From NCBI RefSeq assembly GCF_001270745.1, contig NZ_KQ434752.1, forward strand, positions 1-41,114: 41,114 nt of DNA. Direction: 5' to 3'. Below, in pieces: positions 13,422-32,450 of this stretch. Numbering within the stretch: position 1 is the first letter of the stretch; each line of letters begins with the position of its first letter. The position numbers were made by a program, and so were the translations under genes. The notes beneath the pieces are model-generated. The model did not search any database. It was not told the origin of the DNA and saw only the letters and a program-made list of their open reading frames with translations. This DNA is from Jiangella muralis (lineage in GTDB: Bacteria; Actinomycetota; Actinomycetes; Jiangellales; Jiangellaceae).

Positions 13422-13438
13422 TCACCCCCGGTGGGTGA
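13422..13438. promoter_or_regulatory. Stress-block palindrome, site 1 (exact)
   Basis: TCACCC-CCGGT-GGGTGA, followed by TGCCGC. It lies 71 nt upstream of ATG 13510 (DUF7144) and 21 nt upstream of the divergent small membrane protein. One of seven sites with identical geometry. Confidence 0.65.
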
Positions 13439-13509
13439 TGCCGCTACCGCCGCACCGCCGGAAAAGTGGGAAACCGGGGACCTCCCCGCGTCACCTCGCA
13501 GGAGGAGTC

Positions 13510-13935
13510 ATGACCGATTTCCGCACCTCGCCGACCGAGGCGCCCAAGTCCGAGCCGTCCGGCTGGGCGACCGGCGGCGTCATCTTCGCGGCCACGATGA
13601 TGGTCCTCATCGGCGTCTTCCAGGCGCTCGAGGGCCTGGCGGCGATCATCGACGACAATTTCTTCGTCGTGCTGCCCAACTACACCTTCGACCTGGACAC
13701 CACCGCATGGGGCTGGGTGCACCTGATCCTCGGCATCGTCATCGCCCTGGCCGGGTTCTTCCTGTTCACCGGCAGCGCCGTGGCCGGCGGGGTCGCGATC
13801 GGGCTCGCCGGACTGAGCGCGATCGCCAACTTCTTCTTCATCCCGTACTACCCGTTCTGGTCGCTGCTGATCATCGCGATCGACATCTTCGTGATCTGGG
13901 CGATCGCACGGTCCGGCATCCTCAGTTCCAGGTAG
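13510..13935 (+). CDS. DUF7144-type four-helix membrane protein
   Basis: A 141-residue integral membrane protein with four hydrophobic helices: GGVIFAATMMVLIGVFQALEG; WGWVHLILGIVIALAGFFLF; a Gly/Ala-rich third; and FWSLLIIAIDIFVIWAIA. The extracytoplasmic loop YTFDLDTTAWGWVH and the FFIPYYPFWSL motif are characteristic of this actinobacterial family. Its molecular role is not known to me. It has an excellent ribosome site (AGGAGG, 4 nt before ATG 13510). The 17-bp palindrome 71 nt upstream places it in the proposed regulon. It converges on the gene at 13937 with a 1-bp gap. Confidence 0.85.
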   Translation: MTDFRTSPTEAPKSEPSGWATGGVIFAATMMVLIGVFQALEGLAAIIDDNFFVVLPNYTFDLDTTAWGWVHLILGIVIALAGFFLFTGSAVAGGVAIGLAGLSAIANFFFIPYYPFWSLLIIAIDIFVIWAIARSGILSSR

Positions 13936-13936
13936 C

Positions 13937-15040
13937 TCAGCGCAGCAGGACCGGCCGGTAGCAGCCGAACTCGGCCTGCCAGCCCTCGACCTCGGTGTCG
14001 CCGGAGACGACGAGATCGCGGCCGCCGGGCAGCACGCCGTCGTCGACGATGCTGCGCAGGCCGGTCCACGCGGCGGGGTCGTCGTGCCCGTGGATCTCCG
14101 ACTGCACCGGCCAGTCCGGCACACCGGCGAGCGCGGTCGTGGCGGCCTCCGCCGCGGCCGCGTCACCGGCGTCGGTGGCCCGGATCCAGCTCTCGATCCA
14201 GGCGCACCGGGCCTCGGACTCGACGGTGTAGGCCAGCGCGTGCCGGGTGGTGACGCCGCCCGACGGCGCGATCTCCAGGCCGCCCGGCAGTGCCGCGCCG
14301 CCGAGCAGCTGCTCCGCGGTCGCGACGATGTCCTCGGACCGGATGACGTCGCCGGGCAGCGCGGACAGCCAGTCCTCCGCGTCGACCCGGGTCACGGCGC
14401 CCAGCAGCTCCGCGAAGGCGGCGTCGTCCATCGGCGACCGCCAGGTCAACAGCTCCGCGAAGGCGTCGCCCTGCTGCCAGACGGCGCTCCATTCGCCGTC
14501 GCCGTACGAGAACACGGTCGCCTGGTGGCCGGCGACGACGGCCTCGGTGACGGCGTCCGCCGCGCCCGCGCGGCTGGCGATCGCGGCCGCCGGATCGGCC
14601 GAGACGCTCCACGACAGCCGCACCTCGCTGGTGCCGTCGGTGAACCACATGTATCCGTCGCCGGGGTCCAGCTCGTCGGCGCTCTCGACCCGCCAGCCCG
14701 GCGCGTCGACGAGCAGCCGCGGCGTCTGGTCGGCCATGGCGATCGCCTCGGCCGCCCATGCCTGCGGCGCGTCGTCGCCGCCCTGCGTGCTGACCAGGGC
14801 GGTGACGCCGACGGCGGCGGCCGCGGCGACGGCGCCCAGCGCGGCCAGCCGGCGGACCCGGCGGCGCGGCCGCCGAGCCGGCCGCCGAGCCGGCGGGCGG
14901 GCCGCCGGAAGCAGCGGCTCGGGAGCGGCCAGGATCCGCGTCATCAGCTCCGCCTCGGCGGCGCTGCCGGTCAGTGTGACGATCTCCTCGTCGCTGTGCT
15001 GCGCGGCCCGGCGGACCAGCGCGGTCATGGGGTCGGTCAC
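13937..15040 (-). CDS. Membrane-anchored partner of the adjacent ECF sigma factor (CU044_5270-like)
   Basis: A 367-residue protein: a cytoplasmic N-terminal 60 residues, an Arg-rich stretch (RRPARRPRRRVRRL), one transmembrane helix (LAALGAVAAAAAVGVTALV), then a large extracytoplasmic domain (WRVESADELDPGDGYMWF and so on). This layout is that of actinobacterial proteins encoded directly after a sigma factor and assumed to control it. The start is GTG 15040, with AGGAGG 4-5 nt upstream, and it overlaps the sigma stop by 4 nt (GTGA). Since the sigma gene upstream looks broken, this protein may now lack its partner. Stop 13937 abuts the convergent DUF7144 gene. Confidence 0.7.
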   Translation of the reverse strand: MTDPMTALVRRAAQHSDEEIVTLTGSAAEAELMTRILAAPEPLLPAARPPARRPARRPRRRVRRLAALGAVAAAAAVGVTALVSTQGGDDAPQAWAAEAIAMADQTPRLLVDAPGWRVESADELDPGDGYMWFTDGTSEVRLSWSVSADPAAAIASRAGAADAVTEAVVAGHQATVFSYGDGEWSAVWQQGDAFAELLTWRSPMDDAAFAELLGAVTRVDAEDWLSALPGDVIRSEDIVATAEQLLGGAALPGGLEIAPSGGVTTRHALAYTVESEARCAWIESWIRATDAGDAAAAEAATTALAGVPDWPVQSEIHGHDDPAAWTGLRSIVDDGVLPGGRDLVVSGDTEVEGWQAEFGCYRPVLLR

Positions 15041-15850: not shown

Positions 15851-16774
15851 TCAGACGTCCGCGACGCAGCGGAAGCCGATGTTGCCGGCCGAGCTGTCGG
15901 GCGTGTTGGAGCTGCGCGCGTCGACGCGGTAGCGGAAGCAGTAGCTGTCGTGGCACAGGTAGGAGCCGCCGCGCATCGCCTTGGCGCCGGCCCGGGTGGG
16001 GCTGCGCTGGTCGAACCAGTTCGCGCACCATTCCCACACGTTGCCGGTCATGTTGTGCAGGCCGTAGCCGTTGGGCGGGAACGCGTCGGCGGGCGCGGTG
16101 CCGACGTAGCCGTCGGCGGCGGTGTTCGTCGCGGGGAAGGTGCCCTGCCAGACGTTCATCCGGTGCTCGCCGCCGGGCTCGCGCTCATCGCCCCACGGGT
16201 AGTGGTGCTGCACGAGGCCGCCGCGGGCCGCGTACTCCCACTCCTCCTCGGTGGGCAGCCGCTTGCCCGCCCAGCGTGCGTAGGCGCGGGCGTCGCGCCA
16301 GGTGACGTGCACGACGGGGTGGTCGAGGCGGTCGTCCAGCTTCGACGCCGGGCCCTCCGGGTGCCGCCAGTCGGCGCCGTACACCTCACGCCACCACGGC
16401 GCCGCCGCGACGCCGCGGGTCGGCGGGTGGTCGTCGGGCAGCAGCCCGGCGAAGACGAACGACGTGCCGAACCGCTCGGCCAGCGTCACCCACCCGGTGG
16501 CCTCGACGAACTCAGCGAACGCCGCGTTCGTCACCGTGGTGACGTCGATGCGGAACGGCGCCACCGTCACCTCGCGGACCGGGCCCTCGCCGTCGGCCGG
16601 GTAGCCGTCGCCGGCGTCGGTGCCCATGAGGAACGCGCCGCCGGGCAGCGTCGCCATGGCGCCGCCGGCGGGCCGCGCAGCCGCTGGCGGCGCCGTCACC
16701 GACGGCACCGCCAGCAGTTGATGCGTCTCGCGACCGGCCGCGCAACACGGCGCCGGGTCACTCGGCGAAGGCAT
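15851..16774 (-). CDS. Formylglycine-generating enzyme (sulfatase-activating, SUMF1 family)
   Basis: It oxidises the Cys of a CxPxR motif to formylglycine, the catalytic residue of type I sulfatases. The 307-residue protein shows the FGE fold motifs: LPGGAFLMGTDAGDGYPADGEGPVREV, ERFGTSFVF, HPVVHVTWRDARAYARWAGKRLPTEEEWEYAARGG, NVWEWC, and GGSYLCHDSYCFRYRV. Its two cysteines (about 274 and 279) are the copper-binding pair of the active site. It lies in one minus-strand operon with the sulfatase at 17279-19600, its obvious substrate. ATG 16774 overlaps the end of the DUF1269 gene by 17 bp. The N-terminal CCAAG segment is outside the catalytic fold. Cytoplasmic. Confidence 0.93.
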   Translation of the reverse strand: MPSPSDPAPCCAAGRETHQLLAVPSVTAPPAAARPAGGAMATLPGGAFLMGTDAGDGYPADGEGPVREVTVAPFRIDVTTVTNAAFAEFVEATGWVTLAERFGTSFVFAGLLPDDHPPTRGVAAAPWWREVYGADWRHPEGPASKLDDRLDHPVVHVTWRDARAYARWAGKRLPTEEEWEYAARGGLVQHHYPWGDEREPGGEHRMNVWQGTFPATNTAADGYVGTAPADAFPPNGYGLHNMTGNVWEWCANWFDQRSPTRAGAKAMRGGSYLCHDSYCFRYRVDARSSNTPDSSAGNIGFRCVADV

Positions 16775-17278: not shown

Positions 17279-19600
17279 CTAGTCGCGGGCCAGGGCGGCG
17301 TGCAACTGCCGCTCGAGGTCCAGGTAACGGTCGTCGGCCACGTTGACCTCGACCTTCACGATCCGGCCGCCGGCGAACGGGAATCGCGGCGGGTACTGCC
17401 GGGTGACGGCGTCGCCGCCGTCGTAGCCCACACACAGGCCCTCGCCGCACAGCGAGTAGTGCCCGGACTGGGTGCGCAGCGGGCCCGTGGCCACCTCGGC
17501 CTCGTCGACGTAGAGCCGCGCGGTGCCGTGCGACTCCCCGTGCTCGCCGGTGCGCTCCTTGACGAACTCGACGCCGACGACGTGCCGGCCGCCGGGCAGC
17601 GGCCCGGACGTCAGCTCCTGCTCCGGCGCGAGGCCGAGGAAGTTGTAGACGTAGTGCAGCCGGCCGTCCTTGACGAACAGCGCGTGGCCGCCGAAGCGCG
17701 ACCCCTGCGCCAGGATCACGCCCTCGGCCGACGGCGACAGCTCCACCTCGGCGAGGATCCGGTACGAGACGCCGTGCGTGTTGGCCGCCGACCGCTCCGG
17801 CACCTCGGCCGTGCCCGGGTAGTAGGTGTACGTGCCGCCGGCCGGCGCCGGCGCCTGGAACTCGTACTTCATGTATTCGAGCACGCCGACGTCGTTGAGC
17901 GGCAGCACGTCGTACTTGCCGGCCTCCTCGAACCAGAGGTCGACCAGCTCGCGCACCTTCTCCGGGTGCTCGGCGGTGAGGTCGTGCGCCTCGGCGCGGT
18001 CGACGTCGGTGTGGAACAGCTGCCACTGGTCGTCGCCGAAGTGCCCGACGTCCGACGGCAGCGGCCCGTGCACCGCGACGACCTTCCAGCCGTCGTGCCA
18101 CAGCCCGCGGGTGCCGAGCATCTCGTAGTACTGCGTGCGCCGGGTCGTCGGCGCGCTCGCGTCGTCGAAGCTGTAGCGCATCGACTCCCCCGGCAGCGGC
18201 GTCTGCTCGTAGCCGAGCACGGAGCCGGGCATCTCGACACCGCAGCAGTCGAGGACCGTCGGCACGATGTCGATCGCGTGGTGGTACTGGCCGCGCACCT
18301 CGCCGCGGGCCTCGATACCCCGAGGCCACGAGATCACCATCGGGTCGCAGACGCCGCCCTGGTAGGAGTACCGCTTGAACATGCGGTACGGCGTCGAGAA
18401 CGCCATCGCCCAGCCGGTCGGGTAGTGGTTGTAGGTGTCCGGGCTGCCCAGCCGGTCGATCATCGGCAGGTTCTCCTCGATGCTGTCCGGCCAGCTGTTG
18501 AAGAACTTGTTCTCGTTCACCGAGCCGTTCGGGCTGCCCTCCCCCGACGCGCCGTTGTCCGCGCAGTAGAAGACCAGCGTGTTCTCCAGCTGGCCGGACT
18601 CCTCCAGGTAGTCGACCAGCCGGCCGACCTCGTGGTCGGTGTACTCGGAGAAGCCCGCGTACACCTCCGCCATCCGCGAGAACAGCCGCTTCTCGTCGGC
18701 GCTGAGCGAGTCCCACGGCCGGACGGCGTCGCCCGGGCTGGTGGTGCCCTCCGGCATCGGGTTCATCGGGGTCAGATCGGTGTCCGGCGGCAGGATCCCG
18801 CGCTCCTTCATCCGCGGCAGCACCCACTCGCGGTAGGCCTCGTAGCCGTCGTCGAACGCGCCGCGGTACTTGTCGATCCACTCCTGCGGCGCGTGGTGCG
18901 GCGCGTGGTTGGCGCCCGGGCAGAAGAACATGTACCAGGGCTTGTCCGGGTCGCTCTGCCGGCTGTCGCGGACGAACGAGATCGCCTTGTCCGTCAGGTC
19001 CTTGGACAGGTGGTAGCCGTCCTCGGGGAGGTACGGCTGCTCGGCGTAGTGGTCGTCCTCGGCGAGATCCGGGTACCACTGGTTGGTCTCGCCGCCGATG
19101 AAGCCGTAGAACCGGTCGAAGCCGCGGCGGATCGGCCAGTTCCGCTTCGACGCGCCCATCGCGAACTCGTCCACCGGGACGTTGTGGTTCTTGCCGACCC
19201 AGAACGTGTTCCAGCCGGCGTCGCCGAGCACCTGGGCCAGGAAGGCGTTCTCCATCGGGATGTGGGTGTGGTTGCCGGGGAAGCCGGTGGCCGTCTCGGC
19301 GATGGTGGCGAACGCGTTCTGGTGGTGGTTGCGGCCGGTCAGCAGGCACGAGCGGGTCGGGCCGCACAGCGCCGTCGTGTGCCACTGGCTGTAGGTGAGG
19401 CCGTCGGCGGCGAGCCGGTCCAGCGTCGGCATCGAGATCCGCCCGCCGTACGGCGACCACGCCGCCTGCCCGGTGTCGTCATAGAGGATGACCAGGACGT
19501 TCGGCGCGCCCTCGGGCGCCCGGGGCGCCAGGAACGGCTCCCAGTCCGGCACGGAGTCACGGATGTCCAGGTTGATGACGCCGTTGAACCGCTTGGGCAT
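17279..19600 (-). CDS. Type I arylsulfatase
   Basis: Formylglycine-dependent sulfatase hydrolysing sulfate esters. The 773-residue protein has PNVLVILYDDTG (metal-binding Asp pair, about residues 33-44) and the maturation motif ALCGPTRSCLLTGRN, with the Cys for formylglycine at about 79. The C-terminal third (about 540-770) is a beta-rich domain seen in large bacterial arylsulfatases. No signal peptide is visible, so it is probably cytoplasmic, unlike many sulfatases. ATG 19600 is preceded by GAGGGGG. An upstream in-frame start at 19639 would overlap SulP and has no ribosome site. It follows SulP by 35 bp and precedes DUF1269 and FGE, so one operon can import sulfated or sulfate substrates, cleave them and activate the enzyme. 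Confidence 0.92.
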   Translation of the reverse strand: MPKRFNGVINLDIRDSVPDWEPFLAPRAPEGAPNVLVILYDDTGQAAWSPYGGRISMPTLDRLAADGLTYSQWHTTALCGPTRSCLLTGRNHHQNAFATIAETATGFPGNHTHIPMENAFLAQVLGDAGWNTFWVGKNHNVPVDEFAMGASKRNWPIRRGFDRFYGFIGGETNQWYPDLAEDDHYAEQPYLPEDGYHLSKDLTDKAISFVRDSRQSDPDKPWYMFFCPGANHAPHHAPQEWIDKYRGAFDDGYEAYREWVLPRMKERGILPPDTDLTPMNPMPEGTTSPGDAVRPWDSLSADEKRLFSRMAEVYAGFSEYTDHEVGRLVDYLEESGQLENTLVFYCADNGASGEGSPNGSVNENKFFNSWPDSIEENLPMIDRLGSPDTYNHYPTGWAMAFSTPYRMFKRYSYQGGVCDPMVISWPRGIEARGEVRGQYHHAIDIVPTVLDCCGVEMPGSVLGYEQTPLPGESMRYSFDDASAPTTRRTQYYEMLGTRGLWHDGWKVVAVHGPLPSDVGHFGDDQWQLFHTDVDRAEAHDLTAEHPEKVRELVDLWFEEAGKYDVLPLNDVGVLEYMKYEFQAPAPAGGTYTYYPGTAEVPERSAANTHGVSYRILAEVELSPSAEGVILAQGSRFGGHALFVKDGRLHYVYNFLGLAPEQELTSGPLPGGRHVVGVEFVKERTGEHGESHGTARLYVDEAEVATGPLRTQSGHYSLCGEGLCVGYDGGDAVTRQYPPRFPFAGGRIVKVEVNVADDRYLDLERQLHAALARD

Positions 19601-19635: not shown

Positions 19636-21369
19636 TCATCGTCGGGCGGCGCCGTCCCCGGCGGCGTCACCTTCTCCGGGTGAGGTCGCCGCGACCGCCG
19701 CGTCGACCGTCGGGTAGAGCCGGTCCAGCACGTCCGCGGCGCCGGCCCGCCGCAGCACGTCGCGCACCTGGCCGACGTCGCCGACGGCGAGCAGGCGCAC
19801 GCCGCGGGCGGCCAGCTCCGTCGCGGTGTCGCGGAGCATCCCGGCCGCGGTGACGTCGATGGACGGGACGGTGGCGGCGTCGAACACCAGCGCGCGGACG
19901 CCGTCGGCGCCGGCCAGTTCCAGCAGCCGGTCCTGCACGGCGTCGGCGTTGGCGAAGTAGAGCGCGCTCTCCACCCGGACCACGACGACGCCGTCAACCG
20001 GGGAGCTCCCCGGATCCCGGGCGACGTCGACCCACTGCCCGGTCCCGCCCGCGACCCGGCCGAGCACCGCGACGTGCGGGTGCGCCGTCCGCGCCAGCAG
20101 CAGCACGACCGACAGGACGACGCCGATCAGCAGGCCGGGCAGCGTGTCGAAGAACAGCACGCCGAGCATGGCGCCGATGGCGCAGATGAAGTCCGCCCGG
20201 GCGGCGCGGCCGTAGATCGAGGCCAGCGCCGCGGAGTTGACCTCGTACAGCCGCCGCAGCCCGCCGATGTCGACCAGCTCGATCACCGCCGCGATGACGA
20301 CGGCGGCCAGCACCGGCTCCGGCAACTCCGCGAACAGCGGCGTCAGGATCAGCAGTGTCAGCACCGTCAGCGCGGCGACCGTCCAGCCGGACACCTGCGA
20401 CCGCGCGCCCGCGCCGGCGTTGACCGCGGTCTTCGACAGGCTGCCGTTGACCACCATGCCGTTGAAGAAGCCGGCGCCGAGGTTGGCCGCGCCCAGCCCG
20501 GCCAGCTCCCGGTTCGCGTCGATCCGGTAGCCGTCGCGGCGGGCGTAGGTCTTCGCCGCGCCGAGCCCTTCGGCGAAGCCGACCAGCATGACGCCGGCCG
20601 CGCCGGACAGCAGTAGCGGGACGTCCGACACGGCGTTGAGGTCGGGTACGCCCGGCGCCGGCAGCCCCGCGTCGATGTGCCCGACGACGGTGACGCCGCG
20701 GTCCTCCAGGCCGAGCACGGCCGACAGCACGATGCCGAGCACCACCGCGGCCAGCGACCCCGGCACCAGCGGCGCGGTCCGCCGCAGGACCAGGACGAGC
20801 GCGAGGCAGCCCAGGCCCACCAGCGCCGACCACCCGTTGGTGTCCCCCAGCGCCGTCAGCACCTCCCACAGTTTCTGGAAGAAGTTGCCCTCGCCGCCCT
20901 CGACGCCGAACAGCTTCGGCAGCTGCCCGACGATGATCACCAGCGCCATCCCGACGATGAAGCCCTTCAGCACCGGCTCGGAGATGAAGTTGGCCAGGAA
21001 GCCCAGCCGCAGCAGCCCGGCCAGCACCGCCAGCGTGCCGACGGCGAGCGCCAGGCCCGCGGTATAAGCGGGGAACTCCCCAGATCCGTTCGACACGATC
21101 CCGCCGACCACCCCCGCCGACAGCGCCGCCGTCGCCGACATCGGCCCGACCACCAGGTGCCGCGAACTGCCCAGCACCGGGTACAGCAGCAGCGCCGGGA
21201 TCGCCGCGTACAGCCCGATCACGGGCGAGACGCCGGCGATCGACGCGTAGGCCAGCGACTCCGGGATCAGCACCGCCCACACCGTCAGCCCGGCCACCAG
21301 GTCGCGGCGCAGCCACGATCGCCGGTAGCCGCGCAGCGACCCCCACATCCACGCCGGCATGCGCCCCAT
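19636..21369 (-). CDS. SulP-family anion transporter with STAS domain
   Basis: A 577-residue inner-membrane transporter. The N-terminal SulP signature LVAGLTVWAVLIPESLAYASIAGVSPVIGLYAA (about residues 25-57) is followed by ten or more hydrophobic segments. A C-terminal STAS domain (about 440-560: GVVVVRVESALYFANADAVQDRLLELAGADGVRALVFDAATVPSIDVTAAGML) completes the protein. SulP proteins carry sulfate, bicarbonate or dicarboxylates. The sulfatase downstream makes sulfate likely, but this is inference. Start ATG 21369 or 21360; the latter has GGGGCGC before it. The divergent promoter region holds palindrome site 3. Confidence 0.9.
   Translation of the reverse strand: MGRMPAWMWGSLRGYRRSWLRRDLVAGLTVWAVLIPESLAYASIAGVSPVIGLYAAIPALLLYPVLGSSRHLVVGPMSATAALSAGVVGGIVSNGSGEFPAYTAGLALAVGTLAVLAGLLRLGFLANFISEPVLKGFIVGMALVIIVGQLPKLFGVEGGEGNFFQKLWEVLTALGDTNGWSALVGLGCLALVLVLRRTAPLVPGSLAAVVLGIVLSAVLGLEDRGVTVVGHIDAGLPAPGVPDLNAVSDVPLLLSGAAGVMLVGFAEGLGAAKTYARRDGYRIDANRELAGLGAANLGAGFFNGMVVNGSLSKTAVNAGAGARSQVSGWTVAALTVLTLLILTPLFAELPEPVLAAVVIAAVIELVDIGGLRRLYEVNSAALASIYGRAARADFICAIGAMLGVLFFDTLPGLLIGVVLSVVLLLARTAHPHVAVLGRVAGGTGQWVDVARDPGSSPVDGVVVVRVESALYFANADAVQDRLLELAGADGVRALVFDAATVPSIDVTAAGMLRDTATELAARGVRLLAVGDVGQVRDVLRRAGAADVLDRLYPTVDAAVAATSPGEGDAAGDGAARR
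19667..19683. promoter_or_regulatory. Stress-block palindrome, site 2 (one mismatch)
   Basis: Read on the minus strand it is TCACCC-GGAGA-AGGTGA, followed by CGCCGC. It lies inside the last codons of SulP and 66 nt upstream of the sulfatase ATG, suggesting an internal promoter for the sulfatase-DUF1269-FGE genes. Confidence 0.55.
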
Positions 21370-21396: not shown

Positions 21397-21413
21397 TCAC
21401 CCCGATCGGGTGA
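21397..21413. promoter_or_regulatory. Stress-block palindrome, site 3 (exact)
   Basis: TCACCC-CGATC-GGGTGA, followed by CGCCGC on the plus side. It lies between divergent genes, 66 nt before the GAP-family ATG (21480) and 27 nt before the longest SulP start (21369). Confidence 0.65.
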
Positions 21414-21479: not shown

Positions 21480-22157
21480 ATGGGCGAGGCGATCGGGGCA
21501 GTCCTGCCGCTCGGGGTGGGCGTCGCGCTCAGCCCGCTGCCGATCGTCGCCGTCGTGCTGATGCTCGGCAGCAGCCGCGGGCGGGTGACCGGGCCGGCGT
21601 TCCTGGCCGGCTGGCTGCTCGGACTGACCGTCGTCGGCACCGTCGTACTGCTGGTCGCGGCCGCCGCCGGACCGGCCGACGACGGCGAGCCGGCGACGTG
21701 GGTGGGCTGGCTGAAGCTGGTCCTCGGCGTCCTCGTCCTGCTGCTGGCCGTGCGCACCTGGCGGCAGCGGCCCCGCGGCGACGTCGAACCGGAGCTGCCC
21801 GGCTGGATGGCGGCGCTGGACTCGTGGTCGCCGGGCAAGGCGCTGGGGCTGGGCGCGCTGCTGTCCGCCGCCAACCCGAAGAACCTCATGCTCACCATCG
21901 CGGCCGCCGCGGCCATCGCGCAGACGGGCGTCGACGCCGGCGGGCAGGCCGTCGCGCTGGCGGTGTTCGTGCTGATCGGGGCGCTCGGGCCGGGGCTGCC
22001 GGTGCTGCTCGCGTTCGCGCTCGGCGACCGCGCCACCGAGATGCTGGCCGATCTCAAGACCTGGCTGGCCCGGCACAACGCGGCCGTGCTGACGGTCGTG
22101 CTGCTGGTGATCGGCGCGAAGCTGATCGGCGACGGCATCGCCGGGCTGTCCGGGTGA
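21480..22157 (+). CDS. GAP family membrane protein (Sap-like, LysE-like fold)
   Basis: A 225-residue protein with six hydrophobic helices. The first is AVLPLGVGVALSPLPIVAVVLML, the signature of the GAP/Sap family, named from the mycobacterial protein that supports sulfolipid surface export. ALGLGALLSAANPKNLMLTIAAAAAIA is the second conserved block. These proteins are thought to help move lipids or solutes through the membrane. ATG 21480 has GGAGGCGGC before it. It overlaps the following SulP gene by 4 nt (GTGA), so both are translated together. Palindrome site 3 precedes it by 66 nt. Confidence 0.85.
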   Translation: MGEAIGAVLPLGVGVALSPLPIVAVVLMLGSSRGRVTGPAFLAGWLLGLTVVGTVVLLVAAAAGPADDGEPATWVGWLKLVLGVLVLLLAVRTWRQRPRGDVEPELPGWMAALDSWSPGKALGLGALLSAANPKNLMLTIAAAAAIAQTGVDAGGQAVALAVFVLIGALGPGLPVLLAFALGDRATEMLADLKTWLARHNAAVLTVVLLVIGAKLIGDGIAGLSG

Positions 22158-25167: not shown

Positions 25168-25476
25168 TCAGTCCGCGCCGCCCCGGGCCGTGACCAGCCG
25201 CCGGCCGGCCCGGGTGGTCCGGCCCCCCGGGCCAGGCTGCGCCGGAACCACTGACCCGCTCGACCCGGTCGCCCCGGCCGCCCCGGCCGGCTCTGACCGC
25301 CCGGCCGGCTCGGCGGCCGCGGCCGGGGCCGCTTCGCTCTCTCCCCCGGCGCCTGGCGCCGGCCGCCGGGCGGTGGCGTGCGTCACCGCGTTCCGGATCA
25401 CCTGCGGAGTCCCGTCCAGGACCGCGGCGCTGGTCACAGCACCCAGCAATCCGGGCCGATCGAACCGTCCGGTCAT
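25168..25476 (-). CDS. Short low-complexity protein following DUF6325
   Basis: A 102-residue protein. It begins MTGRFDRPGLLGAVTSAAVLDGTPQVIRNAVTHATARRP, then Ala/Pro/Gly/Glu-rich sequence and a basic end (RTTRAGRRLVTARGGAD). Position and N-terminal style match the SHOCT gene that follows the other DUF6325 copy (MGLLRGMARTAVVAGTATAVSNRVSRR). However, the C-terminal SHOCT helix pair (LADLKAQGVLTDEEFAAAKARLL) is absent here, so I read it as a SHOCT-less or decayed relative. ATG 25476 overlaps the DUF6325 stop (ATGA) and has GAGGGGG upstream. Confidence 0.65.
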   Translation of the reverse strand: MTGRFDRPGLLGAVTSAAVLDGTPQVIRNAVTHATARRPAPGAGGESEAAPAAAAEPAGRSEPAGAAGATGSSGSVVPAQPGPGGRTTRAGRRLVTARGGAD

Positions 25477-25886
25477 GAGTTCCCCCTCAACACGTCGTCG
25501 GCTGCTTCCGACGGGATCAGGACGTGCAGCGCGACCTGGCCGCCGGCATCCCGGACGGCCTCGGACACGCGGCGCACCCAGGTGTTCTCGTAGGCGATGA
25601 GCACCGCCGAATGTCCTGGCGGCAGCGCATCGGCGACGACGGCGATGTCCTCGTCGTTGACCAGTTCGCCCTCGGCGATCTCCACCCCGCCGAAGCCGAA
25701 CGCGTCGGCGCCGTCGGCGAACTCGACGACCCGGAGGTCGCCGTTCGCCTCGCGCGCCGCGAACACGATGTCCAATAGCGTGACGTCCCCCATGTCGACG
25801 ACGCCGCGCAGCGCCTCGACGGCGAGCGGGTCGACCCGCTCGCCGGGAAAGGTCAGGATCAGCACCTCCACCGGCCGGAACCTCAT
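25473..25886 (-). CDS. DUF6325 family protein, copy A
   Basis: A 137-residue cytoplasmic protein: MRFRPVEVLILTFPGERVDPLAVEALRGVVDMGDVTLLDIVFAAREANGDLRVVEFAD, then ALPPGHSAVLIAYENTWVRRVSEAVRDAGGQV. The pattern V-L-x-F-P-G, D-I-V-F and E-N-T-W is shared with the copy at 29788-30225. No catalytic residues are evident, and the family is usually near stress and membrane genes. ATG 25886 is chosen because homology begins there; an extended frame to 25973 is only Gly/Arg-rich. Palindrome site 4 lies 83 nt upstream. It heads an operon with the genes at 25168 and 23698. Confidence 0.85.
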   Translation of the reverse strand: MRFRPVEVLILTFPGERVDPLAVEALRGVVDMGDVTLLDIVFAAREANGDLRVVEFADGADAFGFGGVEIAEGELVNDEDIAVVADALPPGHSAVLIAYENTWVRRVSEAVRDAGGQVALHVLIPSEAADDVLRGNS

Positions 25887-25969: not shown

Positions 25970-25986
25970 TCACCCACCCCGGGTGA
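25970..25986. promoter_or_regulatory. Stress-block palindrome, site 4 (exact)
   Basis: TCACCC-ACCCC-GGGTGA within a longer GCCTCACCC...GGGTGAGGC symmetry. It lies 83 nt before the DUF6325 copy A start on the minus strand and 5 nt after the stop of the LuxR-type regulator. Confidence 0.65.
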
Positions 25987-25991: not shown

Positions 25992-28664
25992 CTACAAAAG
26001 GCCCAATTCCCTCGCCCGGTCGACGGCCTGACGACGGCTGCCGACGTCGAACTTGCGGTAGATCGCCTTGAGATGTGTCTTGACGGTGTTGACGCTCAGC
26101 ACGTGCGCCCCGGCGATCTCCTCCAGCGACAGCAGCGACGGCAGGTCGCGCAGCAGTTCCAGCTCACGCGCCGTCAGCGCTTCGCCGGACACCGTCGCCC
26201 GCTGCGCGTCACCCTCGTCGTCGCCGAACAGGCCGATGGCGGTGTGGACGAACTCCTCGTGCCGGCCGAACCTCCCTTCCCCGTGGATGAGCAGCGACCG
26301 GACCCGCCCGGACGCCCCGACGAACTCCCGGAACATCCGCCGCGGCTCGGCGAGGTCCAGGGCGTGCAGCAGCGCGTCGTGCGCGCGGGCCGGCTCGTCC
26401 AGTTCGGCAGCGAAGTGCGCCGACAGCAGCCAGCCGGTGATCTCGTTGCTGACGAGGTGACACGGCACCGTCCCGGCCAGCACCGGCTGCAACGCCGCCC
26501 GGGCCGCCGCCTTGCGCCCGTCGTGCGCGTGCGCCAGCGCCCGCAGCACGAGCAGGTCGCCGGTGTCGTCGAGCAGCCGCTCGGCCCGGGTCAGGGCCTC
26601 GGCGACCGCCGCCCGGTCGCCCGCCGCCAGCGCCAGTTGCAGCTCGGTGAGGCAGAAGTAGCTGGCACCCACCGGCGGCAGCGCGCTGTCGTCGTACGGC
26701 CAGGCGCGGCGCAGCAGCCGGGCCGCCTCGTGCCGGTTCGGCGTCTCGGCCGCGGCCAGGCAGGCCCGCAGCAGCCGGGTGGACAACTCGACCTCGGGCT
26801 CGACGTCGGCGTCGATGGCGCCGGCCAGGGCCAGGTAGCGGCGGGTCTCGTCGTGGTCCAGCCGCTGGAACGCCGTACCGGCGGCCAGGAGGTAGACCGG
26901 CGTCATCCGCCCGGTGCCGGACCAGCCGCGCCGCCCGGCGAAGTCGATCGCCTCGGTGACCCGCCGGGTGACGGTCTCGGCGTCGCCCCGCGCGGCGGCG
27001 CCGACCGCGAGGTAGGACAGGCATTCCAGCGCCAGCGCGTCGCGGCCGTCGCGGCGGGCCATGCGCAGCGCCTCGCGCAGGTCCTCCTCGGCCGCGTCGT
27101 ACTCGCGGAACCAGATCCGGAGGATTCCCCGGTTGACCGCGGCGAGCAGCAGCAGATCCGGCTCGCCGGGCACCTGCTCCTCGCTCAGCCCGAGCAACTC
27201 GGCCAGCTCCGGGCCGCGGTCGCCGCGCAGCCGCCCCTCGTACATGAGCGCGGTGGTGTGCAGCAGCCGCAGCCGCGCGGACCGGTGCCGGGACGGGTCG
27301 CGCCCGACGAGGTCGATGTGGCGGCGGGCCACCGGGAGCGCGCCGTCCTGCAGCGCCGCCAGCGCCGCGACCAGCGCCGTCACCGGTTCGGCGACGAGGT
27401 CGTCGGGCAGCTGCCGCACCGTCGCCGACAGCCGGGTGGCGTCGCCGGACAGCAGCAGCCGCAACCCGTACCGGTCGACGAGGTCCGCGGCGCGCGGCCA
27501 GTCGGCGCCGTCGGCGGCGTGGTCCATCGCCGGCCCGGGCAGCCCGTGGTCCAGGAACCACCCCGACGCCTCGACGTGGTGCTGCCGCTGCGCCACGACG
27601 TCGCGCCGGTTGCCCTCGGCCAGCAGGAAGCTGCGCAGCAGGCCGTGCACCCGGTACGACGTCGGCGCCCGGCCCACGCGCGCCACCAGCGCGTTGTCGC
27701 GGGCCAGCCGGGCCAGGACGGCGCCGGCGTCGGCCCGGCCGGACAGCCGGCTGGCGAGATCGGCGGTGAGCGTCTCGGCCACCGCCGTGGCCAGCAGCAG
27801 GTCGACGGTCTCGGCGGAGAGCGCGTCGAGCACCTCCGCGACGAGGTAGTCGGCCAGCGGCCGCTCGTCGCCGGCGAACCCGGCGATGTACTTGGTGACG
27901 TCGTCCTGCGACGCCAGCGACAGCGCGGCCAGGCTGAGCCCGGCCGCCCAGCCCTCGGTCCGCTCCAGCAGCAGCGCGAGGTCGGGCTCGTCCAGCTCGA
28001 GGTGCCGGCGGCGCAGCAGGAGGTCGGCCTCGTCGAGGTCGAACGCGAGGTCGGCGGCGCGCACCTCCGTCGCCTGGCCGTCCAGGACCATCCGGGCCAC
28101 CGGCAGCGGCGGGTCGAACCGGCTGCCCAGCACCAGCCGCAGCCCGGCCGGACGGTAGCGGATCAGCCCGGCGAGGCAGGCCAGCCCGCGCGGCGACGCG
28201 ATGACGTGGACGTCGTCCAGCAGCACCCACAGCGGCTGCCGCAGCGCGTCGACGGCCTCGGCGAACGCGGTCAGGAAGCCGCGGTTGCCGGCGTCGCCCG
28301 GCGGGGTCAGCGCGGCCAGCCGCACCTCGGCGGCGGCGTCGACACCGCGGACGGCCCGCCCGCAGGCGCGCAGCAGCCCGGACCACAGCACGTACGGGTC
28401 GTCGTCGTGTTCGTCGAGGGCCAGCCAGGCGACCGGGACGCCGGCCGATCGCAGCCGCTGCCGCCACTGCGCCAGCAGCATGGTCTTCCCCGCGCCGGCC
28501 GGGGCCGAGACCAGCGCGAGCACGCGACCCTCCGCCTCCGCGACCCCCAGGGCACGGAGCAGTCGGGTGCGGGACACCACGCCGGCTGGCATCCGAGGAG
28601 CCCGTAGTTTCTGTTCCAGGATCCTCGCACGCCCCGCGTGAGGGGCAGCTACGACCACGATCAT
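25992..28664 (-). CDS. LuxR-family ATP-binding regulator (MalT/LAL type)
   Basis: A large STAND-class transcription activator of about 890 residues. It opens LEQKLRAPRMPAGVVSRTRLLRAL, the MalT-like entry. The Walker A motif is SAPAGAGKT, followed by LWVLLDDVHVI (Walker B with the Asp pair). A long TPR-like helical region runs from about residues 320 to 800. The C-terminal LuxR helix-turn-helix is LTARELELLRDLPSLLSLEEIAGAHVLSVNTVKTHLKAIYRKFDV. Such proteins bind ATP and an inducer, then oligomerise on DNA. The start is uncertain: ATG 28664 is taken, but 28712, 28709 and 28592 are also in frame and none has a good ribosome site. Its promoter region carries palindrome site 5 and a second dyad at 28707. 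Confidence 0.88.
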   Translation of the reverse strand: MIVVVAAPHAGRARILEQKLRAPRMPAGVVSRTRLLRALGVAEAEGRVLALVSAPAGAGKTMLLAQWRQRLRSAGVPVAWLALDEHDDDPYVLWSGLLRACGRAVRGVDAAAEVRLAALTPPGDAGNRGFLTAFAEAVDALRQPLWVLLDDVHVIASPRGLACLAGLIRYRPAGLRLVLGSRFDPPLPVARMVLDGQATEVRAADLAFDLDEADLLLRRRHLELDEPDLALLLERTEGWAAGLSLAALSLASQDDVTKYIAGFAGDERPLADYLVAEVLDALSAETVDLLLATAVAETLTADLASRLSGRADAGAVLARLARDNALVARVGRAPTSYRVHGLLRSFLLAEGNRRDVVAQRQHHVEASGWFLDHGLPGPAMDHAADGADWPRAADLVDRYGLRLLLSGDATRLSATVRQLPDDLVAEPVTALVAALAALQDGALPVARRHIDLVGRDPSRHRSARLRLLHTTALMYEGRLRGDRGPELAELLGLSEEQVPGEPDLLLLAAVNRGILRIWFREYDAAEEDLREALRMARRDGRDALALECLSYLAVGAAARGDAETVTRRVTEAIDFAGRRGWSGTGRMTPVYLLAAGTAFQRLDHDETRRYLALAGAIDADVEPEVELSTRLLRACLAAAETPNRHEAARLLRRAWPYDDSALPPVGASYFCLTELQLALAAGDRAAVAEALTRAERLLDDTGDLLVLRALAHAHDGRKAAARAALQPVLAGTVPCHLVSNEITGWLLSAHFAAELDEPARAHDALLHALDLAEPRRMFREFVGASGRVRSLLIHGEGRFGRHEEFVHTAIGLFGDDEGDAQRATVSGEALTARELELLRDLPSLLSLEEIAGAHVLSVNTVKTHLKAIYRKFDVGSRRQAVDRARELGLL

Positions 28665-28745: not shown

Positions 28746-28762
28746 TCACCCGGTGCGGGTGA
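28746..28762. promoter_or_regulatory. Stress-block palindrome, site 5 (exact)
   Basis: TCACCC-GGTGC-GGGTGA, followed by GCCGTGCC. It lies 67 nt upstream of ATG 28830 and 81 nt upstream of the regulator's assumed start on the other strand. Confidence 0.65.
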
Positions 28763-28829: not shown

Positions 28830-29030
28830 ATGCGCTACGAGTTCCTCGTCACCGGCCGCGTCTCCGACACCGTCCGGGCGGCGTTCCCCGAATTCGATGT
28901 TGCCGACGGCCCGGCCGGCGGCACGTCGATCTATGGGCCGGTGCGCGACTGGGCCGCGCTGCGGGGCGTGCTCGCCCGGCTGGACGCCCTGGGGCTGACG
29001 GTCGTGGAGATGCGCAAGCTGCCCGACTGA
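28830..29030 (+). CDS. 66-residue protein of unknown function
   Basis: MRYEFLVTGRVSDTVRAAFPEFDVADGPAGGTSIYGPVRDWAALRGVLARLDALGLTVVEMRKLPD in essence: a compact ferredoxin-like beta-alpha-beta-beta-alpha-beta pattern without cysteines. I recall similar short actinobacterial proteins but no function. GGGGGCG stands about 9 nt before ATG 28830; an in-frame GTG farther upstream is possible but adds only basic residues. It is divergent from the large regulator, is followed 19 bp later by the DUF6069 gene, and is preceded at 67 nt by palindrome site 5. Confidence 0.7.
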   Translation: MRYEFLVTGRVSDTVRAAFPEFDVADGPAGGTSIYGPVRDWAALRGVLARLDALGLTVVEMRKLPD

Positions 29031-29049: not shown

Positions 29050-29544
29050 ATGACCAGCGACCCCACCAGCCGGTCCGGACCACCTGTCGTCGACGCCGGT
29101 CGCCTGTGGGCGGGTGGCGTCGCCACCGCCGTCATCGGCGCGCTCATCGCGGTCGTCGGGATCGTCCTGATCCGCGGCGTGTTCGACATCCCGATCCTGG
29201 CGCCGGAGGGCGAGGGCACGTGGGGCGACGCGGGCACCGGCTGGTACGCCGCCGGCGCGGCGCTGGCCGCGCTGGCGGCGACCGCACTGGTGCACGTGCT
29301 GCTGCTGACGACGCCGCAGCCGCTGCGGTTCTTCTCCTGGGTGATCGGGCTCGCGACGGTGATCGGCGTCGTGGCGCCGTTCACGTCCAACGCCGACCTC
29401 GACGCGGAGGTCGCGACCGCCGGGCTGAACCTGGTGCTCGGGGTCGCGATCGGCACGCTGGTCTCGTCGGTGGCGCGCAGCGCGAGCCGGCCCGCGCGGC
29501 GCCGCCGACCGGAGCCGCCGCCGCCCGGGCCTGCCGCCTACTGA
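29050..29544 (+). CDS. DUF6069 four-helix membrane protein
   Basis: A 164-residue integral membrane protein. Four hydrophobic helices: WAGGVATAVIGALIAVVGIVLIRG; WYAAGAALAALAATALVHVLLL; FFSWVIGLATVIGVVAPF; and GLNLVLGVAIGTLVSSVA. The loop FDIPILAPEGEGTWGDAGTGWY and the ADLDAEVATAGLNL segment are the family hallmarks. The C-terminus is Arg/Pro-rich and cytoplasmic. Function unknown. A GAGGAGG ribosome site stands 9 nt upstream of ATG 29050. It forms an operon with the 66-residue gene and is followed by a strong hairpin at 29596. Confidence 0.82.
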   Translation: MTSDPTSRSGPPVVDAGRLWAGGVATAVIGALIAVVGIVLIRGVFDIPILAPEGEGTWGDAGTGWYAAGAALAALAATALVHVLLLTTPQPLRFFSWVIGLATVIGVVAPFTSNADLDAEVATAGLNLVLGVAIGTLVSSVARSASRPARRRRPEPPPPGPAAY

Positions 29545-29735: not shown

Positions 29736-29752
29736 TCACCCGCGACGGGTGA
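29736..29752. promoter_or_regulatory. Stress-block palindrome, site 6 (exact)
   Basis: TCACCC-GCGAC-GGGTGA with outer GCC/GGC symmetry. It lies 35 nt upstream of ATG 29788, closer than at the other sites. Confidence 0.65.
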
Positions 29753-29787: not shown

Positions 29788-30225
29788 ATGGACACCGTGG
29801 ACGTGGGACCGGTCGACATCCTGATGCTGCGCTTCCCGGGCAATCAGTTCAAGGGCGAGATCGTGCCGGCGATGCGCGATCTCGTCGTGAACGGACTGGT
29901 CCGGATCGTCGACCTGATGTTCGTGTATCGCGACGCCGACGGCACCGTCGGCTCGATCGAGCTGGCCGGGCTCGGGCCCGACCTGGAACCCGCCTTCGCC
30001 GACCTGGACGGTCAGCTCGGTGGCGGCCTGCTGGATGCCGAGGACGTGGAGGAGGTCGCGGAGAGCCTGCCGCCGGGCAACTCCGTCGCCGTCCTCGTCG
30101 TCGAGAACACCTGGGCGATCCCGTTCGTGAACGCGGTCCGCGCGGCCGGCGGCGAGGTCACCGACCAGGCCCGCGTCCCGGCCGAGACGGCGGCCCGCGC
30201 GCTGCGCGGCCTCGACATCGGCTGA
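29788..30225 (+). CDS. DUF6325 family protein, copy B
   Basis: A 145-residue cytoplasmic protein: VGPVDILMLRFPGNQFKGEIVPAMRDLVVNGLVRIVDLMFVYRDADGTVGSIELA, then SLPPGNSVAVLVVENTWAIPFVNAVRAAGGEV. It is closer to the typical DUF6325 wording than copy A at 25473. ATG 29788 is chosen at the start of homology, with GAAGG and GGG upstream. It leads a four-gene operon (SHOCT, lipoprotein, DUF1269). Copy A also leads an operon. This parallel, with the same palindrome upstream of both, points to paralogous operons under common control. Confidence 0.87.
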   Translation: MDTVDVGPVDILMLRFPGNQFKGEIVPAMRDLVVNGLVRIVDLMFVYRDADGTVGSIELAGLGPDLEPAFADLDGQLGGGLLDAEDVEEVAESLPPGNSVAVLVVENTWAIPFVNAVRAAGGEVTDQARVPAETAARALRGLDIG

Positions 30226-30238: not shown

Positions 30239-30538
30239 ATGGGACTGCTGCGAGGGATGGCCCGGACCGCGGTCGTGGCGGGCACGGCGACCGCGGTGTC
30301 GAACCGGGTGTCGCGCCGCCAGGCCGGCCGCTGGCAGCAACAGGAGTACGAGCAGCAGGCGATGGCGCAGCCCGCGCCCCAGCCCGCCCCTCCGGCCCCG
30401 GCCCCGGCCCCGGCGCCGGAGGCGCCCGCCGAGGACTCGCTCGCCGACCAACTGGCCCGGCTCGCCGACCTCAAGGCGCAGGGCGTGCTCACCGACGAGG
30501 AGTTCGCCGCGGCCAAGGCGCGATTGCTGACCGGGTGA
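30239..30538 (+). CDS. SHOCT-domain protein
   Basis: A 99-residue protein. A short hydrophobic/basic start (MGLLRGMARTAVVAGTATAVSNRVSRRQAGRW) is followed by a Gln/Ala/Pro linker with PAP repeats (about 40-64). The C-terminal SHOCT helix pair is DQLARLADLKAQGVLTDEEFAAAKARLL. SHOCT tails are oligomerisation or nucleic-acid-contact modules found on many small bacterial proteins. GAGGGGG lies 7 nt before the ATG. It sits 13 bp after DUF6325 copy B and 6 bp before the lipoprotein gene. Confidence 0.85.
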   Translation: MGLLRGMARTAVVAGTATAVSNRVSRRQAGRWQQQEYEQQAMAQPAPQPAPPAPAPAPAPEAPAEDSLADQLARLADLKAQGVLTDEEFAAAKARLLTG

Positions 30539-30544
30539 GCTCCG

Positions 30545-31114
30545 ATGCGACCCCGCGTGCTCGCCCTCGCCGCCGCGATCGTGCTGGTGGCCGGCTGCAG
30601 CAGCGACGAGTCGCCGGAGGAGGGGTGGGCCGACGGCGTCTGCTCGGCGTGGAACGAGTTGTCCGCCGACCTCCGCGGCCTGACCGACGGCCTGAACGTC
30701 GACTCGCTGACGCCTGAGGCGCTGGACCAGCTCAGCAACGAGATCTCCGACCGGGTCGACGCCGTCCAGGCCAGCGCGCAGAACCTCGCCGACGCCGTCG
30801 CCGACACCCCGGAGGGCGCCGACCAGGCGGTCGAGAACGCGCAGCAGGAGCTCGGCGACGAGGCCGACGACGTCCGGGCCGGGCTGGACTCGGCCGGCGA
30901 GGCGATCCAGAGCCTGTCCGGCGCGACCACCGGCGAGGACATCACCGGCGCGCTGTCCGACGCGCAGGCCGCGCTCACCCAGGCCGGGCAGGCGCTCAGC
31001 GCGCTCGGCGACACCGTCGCCGGCTACCTGTCATCGGCCGACGACACACTCCGGCAGGCGTTCGACGACGCGCAGTCCTGCCAGCAGACCCATACGGGAG
31101 GGACCCCATCATGA
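30545..31114 (+). CDS. Putative lipoprotein, helical
   Basis: A 189-residue protein. MRPRVLALAAAIVLVAGCSSDE is a lipoprotein signal with lipobox LVAGC, so the mature protein is anchored by Cys18 to the outer face of the membrane. The rest is almost all alpha-helical and very acidic (VDAVQASAQNLADAVADTPEGADQAVENAQQELGDEADDVRAG), as in phage-tail-like or coiled-coil scaffold proteins. A conserved-looking Cys pair stands near 36 and 180. No enzyme family is recognised. The stop overlaps the start of the DUF1269 gene (ATGA). Confidence 0.8.
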   Translation: MRPRVLALAAAIVLVAGCSSDESPEEGWADGVCSAWNELSADLRGLTDGLNVDSLTPEALDQLSNEISDRVDAVQASAQNLADAVADTPEGADQAVENAQQELGDEADDVRAGLDSAGEAIQSLSGATTGEDITGALSDAQAALTQAGQALSALGDTVAGYLSSADDTLRQAFDDAQSCQQTHTGGTPS

Positions 31115-31620
31115 GTGACAGCAACGTCGAGGTCTTCGTGGCCGCGTTCGGCACCGAGGACGAGGCCGGCCAGGCCTTGAAGGACTTCCGCGCGATGGCC
31201 CGCGAGGGCTCCATCGACCTCATCGACGCCGCCGTCGTGGTCCGCCGCGCCGACGGCAAGGTGACGTTCCAGGAGACCACCGACCCCAGCGGCAAGACGT
31301 GGGCCAAGCGCGGCGCCGTCGCAGGCGGTCTCGTCGGCCTGATCTTCCCGCCGAGCCTGCTCGTGTCCGCCGCGGTCGGCGCGGCCGGCGGCGGCATCTG
31401 GGGCAAGGTGCGCGACAAGGGCTTCCAGGACTCGGACCTGCGCTCCATCGGCGACAGCCTCGAGCCCGGCACGTCCGCCATCATCGCCGTCGCCGAGGAC
31501 CGGATGATCGAGCGGCTGCAGGCCGGGCTCGAGGGCTACCGCAACATCGCGCGGCACGCCGTCAGCGCCGCGGCCGCGGCCGCCGTCATCGCCGCCCCGG
31601 AAGAGGACTCACCGTCCTGA
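31111..31620 (+). CDS. DUF1269 family protein, second copy
   Basis: A 169-residue protein. It opens VEVFVAAFGTEDEAGQALKDFRAMAREGSIDLIDAAVVVRRADGKVTFQET, then WAKRGAVAGGLVGLIFPPSLLVSAAVGAAGGGIWGKVRDKGF (the Gly-rich membrane-hairpin region), then LRSIGDSLEPGTSAIIAVAEDRMIERLQ. It shares the order of motifs with the gene at 16758-17249 but is clearly diverged. GGGAGGG precedes ATG 31111. Last gene of the DUF6325-B operon; its end overlaps the convergent CYTH gene by 12 bp. Confidence 0.88.
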   Translation: MSDSNVEVFVAAFGTEDEAGQALKDFRAMAREGSIDLIDAAVVVRRADGKVTFQETTDPSGKTWAKRGAVAGGLVGLIFPPSLLVSAAVGAAGGGIWGKVRDKGFQDSDLRSIGDSLEPGTSAIIAVAEDRMIERLQAGLEGYRNIARHAVSAAAAAAVIAAPEEDSPS

Positions 31621-32385
31621 CGTGAGCTGCTCGGAGAAGTACGTCAGCGCCGTCCGGGTCTTCGTCTGCTGCACGCCACCGAGGTCGATGCCGCGCTCGC
31701 CGAGGAAGGCCCGCGACTCCGCGGCCACGTTGAGCGCCTCACCCGGCAGGCACTTGGTGGACAGTTCGAGGATGCGGCCGCCGTCCGGGTACAACCACAG
31801 CTCGGCGACCAGCCGGCGGCCGTAGTCGCCGGGCGTGAACTTGAGCTTCATGATCGGGATCGGCCCGAGCGGGCTCAGGTCGTCCAGCTCCACCCCTTCG
31901 GGCGCGTGCGCCGCGAACAGGTCGCGCTGCTGCTTGGTGAACAACTTGCGGATCGGCCGCCGCCCGGCCAGCACGTCGCTGACGTGAGTGTTGTCGACCG
32001 GCGCCTTGAGCCGTCCGGACGCCACGAACGAGCCGCCCGGCATCGCGTCGACCTCCACCCCGAAGTCCGGCGACCGCCGCAGCGCCGGCGACAGCTTTTT
32101 CGGCTCCACCGGGCGCAGCTTCACCACCGCGTCGCCGGGCCGGCGTTGCACCCGCCGGGCCCGGACCACCACGCCGGCGCGGTCCAGCGCGAGGTCCGGC
32201 GTGTCGAAGAACACCACCTGCCGGATCTGAGCGTCCAGCGGGTCCATGCCCAGCGCCGTGACGGCGGAACGTTGGTCGACGTCCGGCACGCTCAGCTTCA
32301 GCTCGACGGTATCGGCGTCCTTGAACAACGCGAGTAACTCCCCCAGCCGTTTGCTGGACATGATCGGCAGCGCCGTTTCGGTCAT
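31609..32385 (-). CDS. CYTH-like domain protein
   Basis: A 258-residue protein. ADTVELKLSVPD near residue 24 gives the E-x-K of the CYTH signature, although the first Glu of ExExK is Thr here. Further features are QVVFFDTPDLALDRAGVVVRARRVQRRPGDAVVKLRPVE and a late basic-acidic strand pattern (GRRLVAELWLYPDGGRILELSTK). CYTH enzymes act on triphosphates such as polyphosphate, ATP or thiamine triphosphate, with divalent metal. The weakened signature leaves activity open. ATG 32385 is chosen at the start of homology; upstream frame is low complexity. It is divergent from the SnoaL-like gene, with palindrome site 7 between them. Confidence 0.75.
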   Translation of the reverse strand: MTETALPIMSSKRLGELLALFKDADTVELKLSVPDVDQRSAVTALGMDPLDAQIRQVVFFDTPDLALDRAGVVVRARRVQRRPGDAVVKLRPVEPKKLSPALRRSPDFGVEVDAMPGGSFVASGRLKAPVDNTHVSDVLAGRRPIRKLFTKQQRDLFAAHAPEGVELDDLSPLGPIPIMKLKFTPGDYGRRLVAELWLYPDGGRILELSTKCLPGEALNVAAESRAFLGERGIDLGGVQQTKTRTALTYFSEQLTSGR

Positions 32386-32433
32386 CCGGACCACCCCCCG
32401 TCTGGATCGTCGCGCCCCCGGCCCGGCCCGGCC

Positions 32434-32450
32434 CCACCCGATCCGGGTGA
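32434..32450. promoter_or_regulatory. Stress-block palindrome, site 7 (one mismatch)
   Basis: CCACCC-GATCC-GGGTGA, followed by TGCCGCC. It lies between divergent genes, 46 nt before ATG 32497 and 48 nt before ATG 32385. Confidence 0.55.

Follow-up and report, generated by a model that had tools for sequence, protein, structure and literature searches.

We analysed a 41,114-nucleotide (nt) stretch of DNA from Jiangella muralis (positions 1-41114 of contig C2 in the 7.27-Mb assembly, here genome G000; hereafter the window), in which the 17-bp palindrome TCACCC-N5-GGGTGA recurs at promoters. We found that the palindrome marks a real regulon, which is dispersed over the genome and reaches far beyond the genus Jiangella. 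In our reading, to which as a whole we give a probability of about 0.8, the palindrome would be the operator of LAL1, a MalT-like activator of the LAL family encoded between two of the sites; close paralogues of LAL1 probably use the operator as well. The elements that can be read directly from the DNA are the operator, a -10 element at a fixed distance from it, a recurring set of targets and the co-occurrence of the sites with LAL genes.

The palindrome and its -10 element

A rescan of the window returned seven sites, five exact and two with one mismatch, with a spacer of 5 in all of them, which bears out the coordinates, mismatch counts and gap length of a first-pass annotation of this DNA. 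The sites themselves carry no strand; the strand given below is that of the promoter.

13422..13438, exact; towards the DUF7144 gene (plus strand), -10 ANNNT at 13463-13467
19667..19683, one mismatch; within a SulP gene at its 3' end, towards the sulfatase gene (minus strand), -10 ANNNT at 19642-19638
21397..21413, exact; -10 on both sides, towards SfLAP (plus strand, 21438-21442) and towards SulP (minus strand, 21372-21368)
25970..25986, exact; 5 nt past the LAL1 stop codon, towards the DUF6325 gene (a) (minus strand), -10 ANNNT at 25946-25942
28746..28762, exact; towards the genes for a 66-amino-acid (aa) protein and DUF6069 (plus strand), -10 ANNNT at 28787-28791; no -10 towards LAL1
29736..29752, exact; towards the DUF6325 gene (b) (plus strand), -10 ANNNT at 29776-29780
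32434..32450, one mismatch; towards the gene for a 258-aa protein (minus strand), -10 ANNNT at 32410-32406; no -10 towards the SnoaL gene

The annotation had placed one site at the end of SulP before the sulfatase, as is indeed the case for 19667, and its start-codon distances of 71, 66, 66, 67, 35 and 46/48 nt agree with ours; the 83 nt given for site 25970 holds for an ATG at 25886, the distance from the gene caller's start being 98 nt. Its statement that 1-13 kb and 33-41 kb are free of sites stands at up to one mismatch and fails at two, where a single match appears in these parts, at 4487. This is the eighth match in the window at that threshold; shuffled sequences gave a mean of 2.58, and eight matches were reached in 1 of 100 shuffles.

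The annotation had also proposed a genome-wide scan, on the grounds that the motif should not be as common inside coding regions or at unrelated promoters. We found 14 exact copies in the genome (five in the window and nine outside), versus none for a reversed-pattern control; with up to one mismatch the numbers were 51 and 7, respectively. By our own gene calls, which were made with a simple script here and in the loci of relatives, 12 of the 14 exact copies lie between genes. The exact copy on contig C14 precedes a DUF7144 gene, overlooked by the script and recovered by a family search, and that on C41, 46 nt ahead of a SHOCT gene, reaches into the 3' end of an ion-channel gene. Among the one-mismatch matches are six identical 17-mers, GCACCCGGCGCGGGTGA, on either strand (C6:193771, C10:171444, C11:232333, C13:162685, C14:132459 and C20:52809) and three identical 17-mers, GCACCCTTGATGGGTGA (C1:83477, C4:308970 and C4:466924), which are perhaps dispersed repeats.

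From 18 genomes we took 138 exact sites, which gave 177 gene-oriented entries for alignment. Besides the arms and a G/T-G-C flank, the strongest conserved feature was an A at +40/+41 and a T at +44/+45 from the start of the site, with a weaker mirror image upstream of the site that fits divergent promoters. The YGCCGC that the annotation had seen after some sites is not general, and we rejected it as a part of the motif. ANNNT, reported as the -10 motif of S. griseus (PMC8914203), occurred 69 and 67 times at the two peak offsets, whereas the offsets of the tested range, peaks included, average about 5. When the alignment was reduced to 113 non-redundant entries, ANNNT was found at +39 to +42 in 82 of them (elsewhere the mean was 9.8 and the maximum 17), and TTGAC between the site and the -10 in none of the 113. 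The absence of a TTGAC -35 makes the promoters look activator-dependent.

In the J. muralis genome, ANNNT at +40/41 accompanies all 14 exact sites, versus 712 of 8,800 random positions (8.1%), indicating that the palindrome is one half of a bipartite promoter. For inexact sites in the loci fetched, the proportion was 10 of 19 with one mismatch (19 of the genome's 37 such sites lay in the DNA tested) and 2 of 16 with two mismatches. Across seven genomes, ANNNT stands at the expected distance from 92 of 96 exact sites, a count that omits one of the 11 sites of genome G018, which fell outside the stretches examined; when the targets in these genomes were classified, the first gene was unclassified or more than 300 nt away for 16 of 107 promoters oriented by their -10. 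By the position of the -10, transcription is predicted to start about 35 nt past the palindrome, which would centre the palindrome near -43, over the -35 region, where an activator in contact with RNA polymerase is expected to sit. By the same element, the seven sites in the window make eight promoters: for DUF7144, sulfatase, SfLAP, SulP, DUF6325 (a), the 66-aa protein and DUF6069, DUF6325 (b) and the 258-aa protein. The -10 for SulP overlaps the called SulP start codon, so that a later start of SulP would be needed.

LAL1 as the candidate regulator

LAL1 is encoded between sites 25970 and 28746. Its residues 6-411 match MalT (PDB 8bob; E 1.8e-32) in an alignment that spans SAPAGAGKT and LLDDVH, and AAA_16 scores 32.7 with a cut-off of 32.6, as befits an N-terminal nucleotide-binding domain with Walker motifs. 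GerE (PF00196) lies at residues 845-900 of a 906-aa form of the protein; the size and the C-terminal LuxR-type helix-turn-helix (HTH) fit the LAL family. A search of named genomes for LAL1 gave four loci, and relatives with 86-90% identity are found in Jiangella rhizosphaerae, J. endophytica and J. anatolica.

The distribution of the sites follows that of LAL1. In 22 Jiangellaceae genomes, where LAL1 was counted as present at 48% identity or more over nearly the full length, six or more exact sites were found in 14 of the 15 genomes with LAL1 and in none of the seven without it, none of which exceeds two exact sites (Fisher p 4.7e-5, relatedness ignored). The congener G003 is without LAL1, above-cut-off DUF7144 and sites alike, and G016 and G019 have LAL1 and no DUF7144. 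For a distant genus, f19, we took all six genomes that have no site and six of the seven that have at least four. A LAL match below 1e-49 was present in five of the latter, and no LAL at 1e-15 was found in any of the six site-less genomes. In a tree of 51 LALs (two short rows of 53 were dropped), 31 of the 33 site-associated LALs fell into one clade of 38 with support of 97/95, the site label having been set by hand and partly on one-mismatch sites. The LAL matches of G014, G015, G017 and G021 fall outside this clade.

A natural variant was seen in G007. This genome carries the canonical regulon and, besides it, a small copy (L170, C57:1-12000) with three perfect TCATCC-N5-GGATGA sites, at 4153, 6413 and 10114, within 6 kb around a divergent LAL whose recognition helix is SPNTIKSQAISIYRKL, versus SVNTVKTHLKAIYRKF in LAL1. 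The same locus holds MscS, DUF7144, sulfatase and DUF6325 genes and one canonical site. Among the 22 Jiangellaceae genomes, exact TCATCC-N5-GGATGA is found three times in G007, once in G018 and not at all in J. muralis. A symmetric change of the operator together with a changed helix points to the LAL as the specificity factor, in what is one case only.

Another palindrome, ATCACCTCAGGTGAT, lies at 28708-28722, upstream of LAL1 and between it and site 28746. We rejected it as a conserved element of the LAL1 promoter, as it is absent from 14 other LAL1 loci (L073-L086), some of which contain little upstream DNA.

We propose the following mechanism. By analogy with MalT, LAL1 would be activated by an inducer plus ATP. 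The activated protein would then bind the inverted pair of half-sites, which resemble a MalT box, near -43 over a -35 region that has no TTGAC, and would recruit RNA polymerase to the ANNNT whose A lies 24-25 nt past the last base of the site. This would switch on the dispersed regulon, namely the genes for DUF7144, SHOCT, DUF6325, DUF1269, DUF6069, the 66-aa protein, SulP, SfLAP, arylsulfatases with the sulfatase-modifying enzyme FGE, alkyl sulfatase, MscS, AI-2E and other channels. That a LAL is the binder, that it binds as a dimer in response to an inducer, that it activates rather than represses, and that the regulon has a role in envelope or sulfate-ester handling, we infer.

Targets of the regulon and their conservation

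The most consistent target is DUF7144. In the J. muralis genome, all six above-cut-off DUF7144 genes have a site, five of them exact and one, on C33, with one mismatch and no -10 at +40/41. Among 60 relatives there were 65 above-cut-off matches to the domain, of which 64 were kept and one, at a contig edge, was dropped. Upstream of these 64 domains we found an exact site in 39 cases, one mismatch in 4, two in 2, three in 2, and four or more in 17. Seven control patterns (four other spacers, and everted, reversed and direct-repeat arrangements) gave no exact match upstream of any of the 64. Across the relatives, the arms of the palindrome are conserved and the spacers vary. Together with the recurrence of the site at other gene families, this answers the annotation's call for conservation upstream of orthologues. 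Promoter location genome-wide, conservation and the fixed -10 spacing thus strongly support its view that the palindrome defines a regulon. The candidate regulon it drew is indeed defined by the palindrome, with the differences that it is dispersed over the genome rather than confined to one block and that SnoaL probably lies outside it.

The genes of the window that belong to this picture, or neighbour it, are as follows.

13510..13935, plus strand; DUF7144 membrane protein, 141 aa (PF23636, E 5.3e-42); predicted model of four helices and a hairpin, pLDDT 86.8
15851..16657, minus strand; FGE sulfatase-modifying enzyme (PF03781 on 15851-16774; start by the gene caller)
17279..19600, minus strand; sulfatase (PF00884 on 17279-19639; start by the gene caller)
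19636..21369, minus strand; SulP permease with STAS domain, 577 aa (PF00916, PF01740)
21480..22157, plus strand; SfLAP (Sap), 225 aa (PF11139)
22154..23740, plus strand; another SulP/STAS permease (528 aa), following SfLAP immediately (PF00916, PF01740)
25473..25886, minus strand; DUF6325 protein (a) (PF19850 on 25473-25871; ATG read at 25886)
25992..28592, minus strand; LAL1, MalT-like LuxR-family regulator and proposed activator, 866 aa (906 aa if GTG 28712 is the start); GerE/LuxR HTH, AAA_16
28830..29030, plus strand; 66-aa protein, unmatched in Pfam; several genomes have relatives of it close to LAL genes
29050..29544, plus strand; DUF6069 protein (PF19545)
29788..30225, plus strand; DUF6325 protein (b) (PF19850), followed in its run by SHOCT, a lipoprotein-like gene and DUF1269
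30239..30538, plus strand; SHOCT protein (PF09851)
31111..31620, plus strand; DUF1269 protein (PF06897)
31609..32385, minus strand; 258-aa protein, no Pfam family at E 0.001

Three assignments of the first-pass annotation changed: its 'GAP' gene is SfLAP (PF11139), its 'CYTH' protein is the 258-aa protein, in which Pfam finds no domain at E 0.001, and SnoaL is probably not a target, as the -10 of site 32434 points at the 258-aa gene. A search of NCBIfam with ten window proteins gave no matches, and a comparison of the DUF7144 model with the PDB gave no match at E 0.001 or better. It is possible that the 66-aa protein is a partner of the regulator.

Beyond DUF7144, the recurrent targets are arylsulfatases, alkyl sulfatase, SulP, SfLAP, SHOCT, DUF6325, DUF1269, DUF6069, the 66-aa protein, AI-2E and MscS. 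Most of them are found together with LAL1 within about 21 kb in G018, and G168, from another family, has ten sites by SulP, SHOCT, DUF6325, DUF1269, sulfatase and DUF7144 genes, among others. Sulfate-ester hydrolases and FGE, SulP permeases and channels, and small membrane proteins of unknown function keep recurring, which suggests an envelope or sulfate-ester response; nothing among these targets bears out the annotation's label of a stress block.

In a sample of the class, the exact palindrome was present in 142 of 296 genomes, and the reversed control in 25 (the control was counted by eye). In a sample of the phylum, the bipartite pattern occurred in 34 of 396 genomes, and several of the 34 are listed under another class; the reversed control occurred in 16, again counted by eye, 12 of which belong to one family, f50, which may therefore use an unrelated motif of that shape. 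Of 18 regions from the phylum-sample genomes (L309-L326), 11 held a LAL gene and three more held fragments or weak matches; as these regions were chosen mostly for clustered bipartite matches, the share of 11 in 18 is biased upward (L327 and L328, chosen for their LAL genes, were not counted). Many of the 18 also hold SulP, SfLAP, alkyl sulfatase, DUF7144, DUF6325 or SHOCT genes, and LAL-DUF7144-SHOCT-SulP-sulfatase neighbourhoods with sites recur in other families.

Alternative readings and known systems

Several observations weigh against a LAL as the regulator. The promoter of LAL1 itself lacks a -10 suitably spaced from site 28746, for which reason we rejected autoregulation of LAL1 through this site by this promoter type. 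Phytoactinopolyspora halotolerans (G019), the exception among the 15 Jiangellaceae genomes with LAL1, has LAL1 at 50% identity, one exact site in the genome and a one-mismatch site beside LAL1. The best LAL of G168 (on C7) has none of that genome's ten sites within the surrounding 16 kb, though a weaker LAL on C8 is within about 4 kb of a site, and G256, of the same genus, carries a LAL but lacks exact sites. G106, the exception in f19, has five exact sites and three bipartite matches, and no LAL at 1e-15; in G040, LAL, DUF7144, sulfatase and DUF6325 genes stand together with no site there. Several LALs occur per genome (three matches in J. muralis), two of the seven LAL1-less Jiangellaceae genomes are only 75-81% complete, and the half-site of BldM is identical.

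The last point leads to a different assignment, in which BldM, or some other NarL-type response regulator with a GGGTGA half-site, owns the sites and LAL genes, which do adjoin sites, are only targets. The arms of the BldM homodimer consensus, TCACcCgnncGgGTGA, are indeed the same (PMC4125116), but its spacer is 4 bp. Of 60 relatives, 41 have exact N4 copies, and J. muralis has one; these copies do not track LAL1 (mean 1.5 versus 0.7, p 0.14), whereas N5 copies do; 30 N4 sites showed no -10 peak at +40/41, and the N4 pattern had no exact match upstream of the 64 DUF7144 domains. We therefore rejected BldM as the simplest reading on the N4 distribution and the missing -10 peak, and regard this assignment as improbable. 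Slightly less probable still is that a LAL binds the sites as a repressor or jointly with another factor. SCO6993, a LAL, is reported to repress (PMC9628970), and the site lies over the -35 position, a place from which repressors can work; however, the lack of TTGAC in the 113 entries makes the promoters look activator-dependent, and the Actinoplanes LAL of like geometry activates (PMC7567727). Chance, base composition or a mobile repeat can be given next to no credence. The genome is G+C-rich, the two-mismatch count of the window was reached by one shuffle in a hundred, and some one-mismatch copies are identical 17-mers, perhaps repeats. However, the reversed control has no exact copy in the genome versus 14 for the palindrome, on which we rejected chance; moreover, the arms are conserved while the spacers vary, the -10 distance is fixed, and other spacers have no exact match upstream of DUF7144.

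The reading with LAL1 as activator can be extended, with odds a little better than even, to a LAL clade across Actinomycetota that would read TCAYCC-N5-GGRTGA with a fixed -10 and no -35, the variable arm base following the recognition helix, and that would control one old envelope/sulfate-ester module, kept as an island or scattered. A bipartite promoter precise enough to search for would make orphan LAL regulons readable from sequence, and would group DUF7144, DUF6325, DUF1269, DUF6069 and SHOCT with sulfatases and SulP permeases as one testable module. It also suggests how one base of spacer parts LAL sites from BldM sites with common arms. LAL regulators are abundant in actinobacteria and few have a known operator.

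We searched one open-access library for the motif strings, the paired DUF names and the regulon, and found no paper on this regulon there. BldM Group I homodimer sites of Streptomyces share with ours the six-base arms and a regulator with a LuxR/NarL-type HTH (PMC4125116), but form a 16-bp palindrome with a different distribution and no fixed -10 at +40/41. Two other actinobacterial LALs, TpdR and SCO6993, resemble LAL1 in family, and promoter binding has been proposed or shown for them; in contrast to the palindrome here, the site proposed for TpdR is a 15-nt direct repeat (PMC6099782), and SCO6993 has palindromes without a common consensus (PMC9628970). MalT of E. coli and Klebsiella resembles LAL1 over residues 6-411, and GGGTGA is one base from its core half-site GGA(T/G)GA (PMC9628970; PMC7567727). 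However, the repeats are direct at the maltose genes there (PMC6099782) and inverted here; the direct-repeat control GGGTGA-N5-GGGTGA had no exact match upstream of the 64 DUF7144 domains, and there were no maltose genes among the classified targets.

The closest system is MalT (ACSP50_3915) of Actinoplanes sp. SE50/110, a LAL that activates a maltose-regulated region of 51 genes through TCATCC-5nt-GGATGA overlapping the -35 (Droste et al. 2020, PMC7567727). The 3' end of that palindrome lies 34.4 ± 1.0 nt before 17 start sites; deletion of the LAL lowered 42 of the 51 genes, and overexpression raised 39 (PMC7567727). Both systems have two 6-base arms with a 5-nt spacer over the -35 and about 34 nt to the start (predicted in our case), a LAL encoded among the targets, as LAL1 is between sites 25970 and 28746, and many targets of membrane or unassigned function. 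They differ in that the arms are TCACCC/GGGTGA here and TCATCC/GGATGA there, one symmetric base apart, that the sites are scattered over the genome rather than confined to one contiguous region, and that such of its genes as we compared (arginine deiminase, permeases and peptidases) are not among the targets here. A LAL with an N5 palindrome is thus of a kind known from Actinoplanes, and what is new here are the letters of the arms and the scattered layout.

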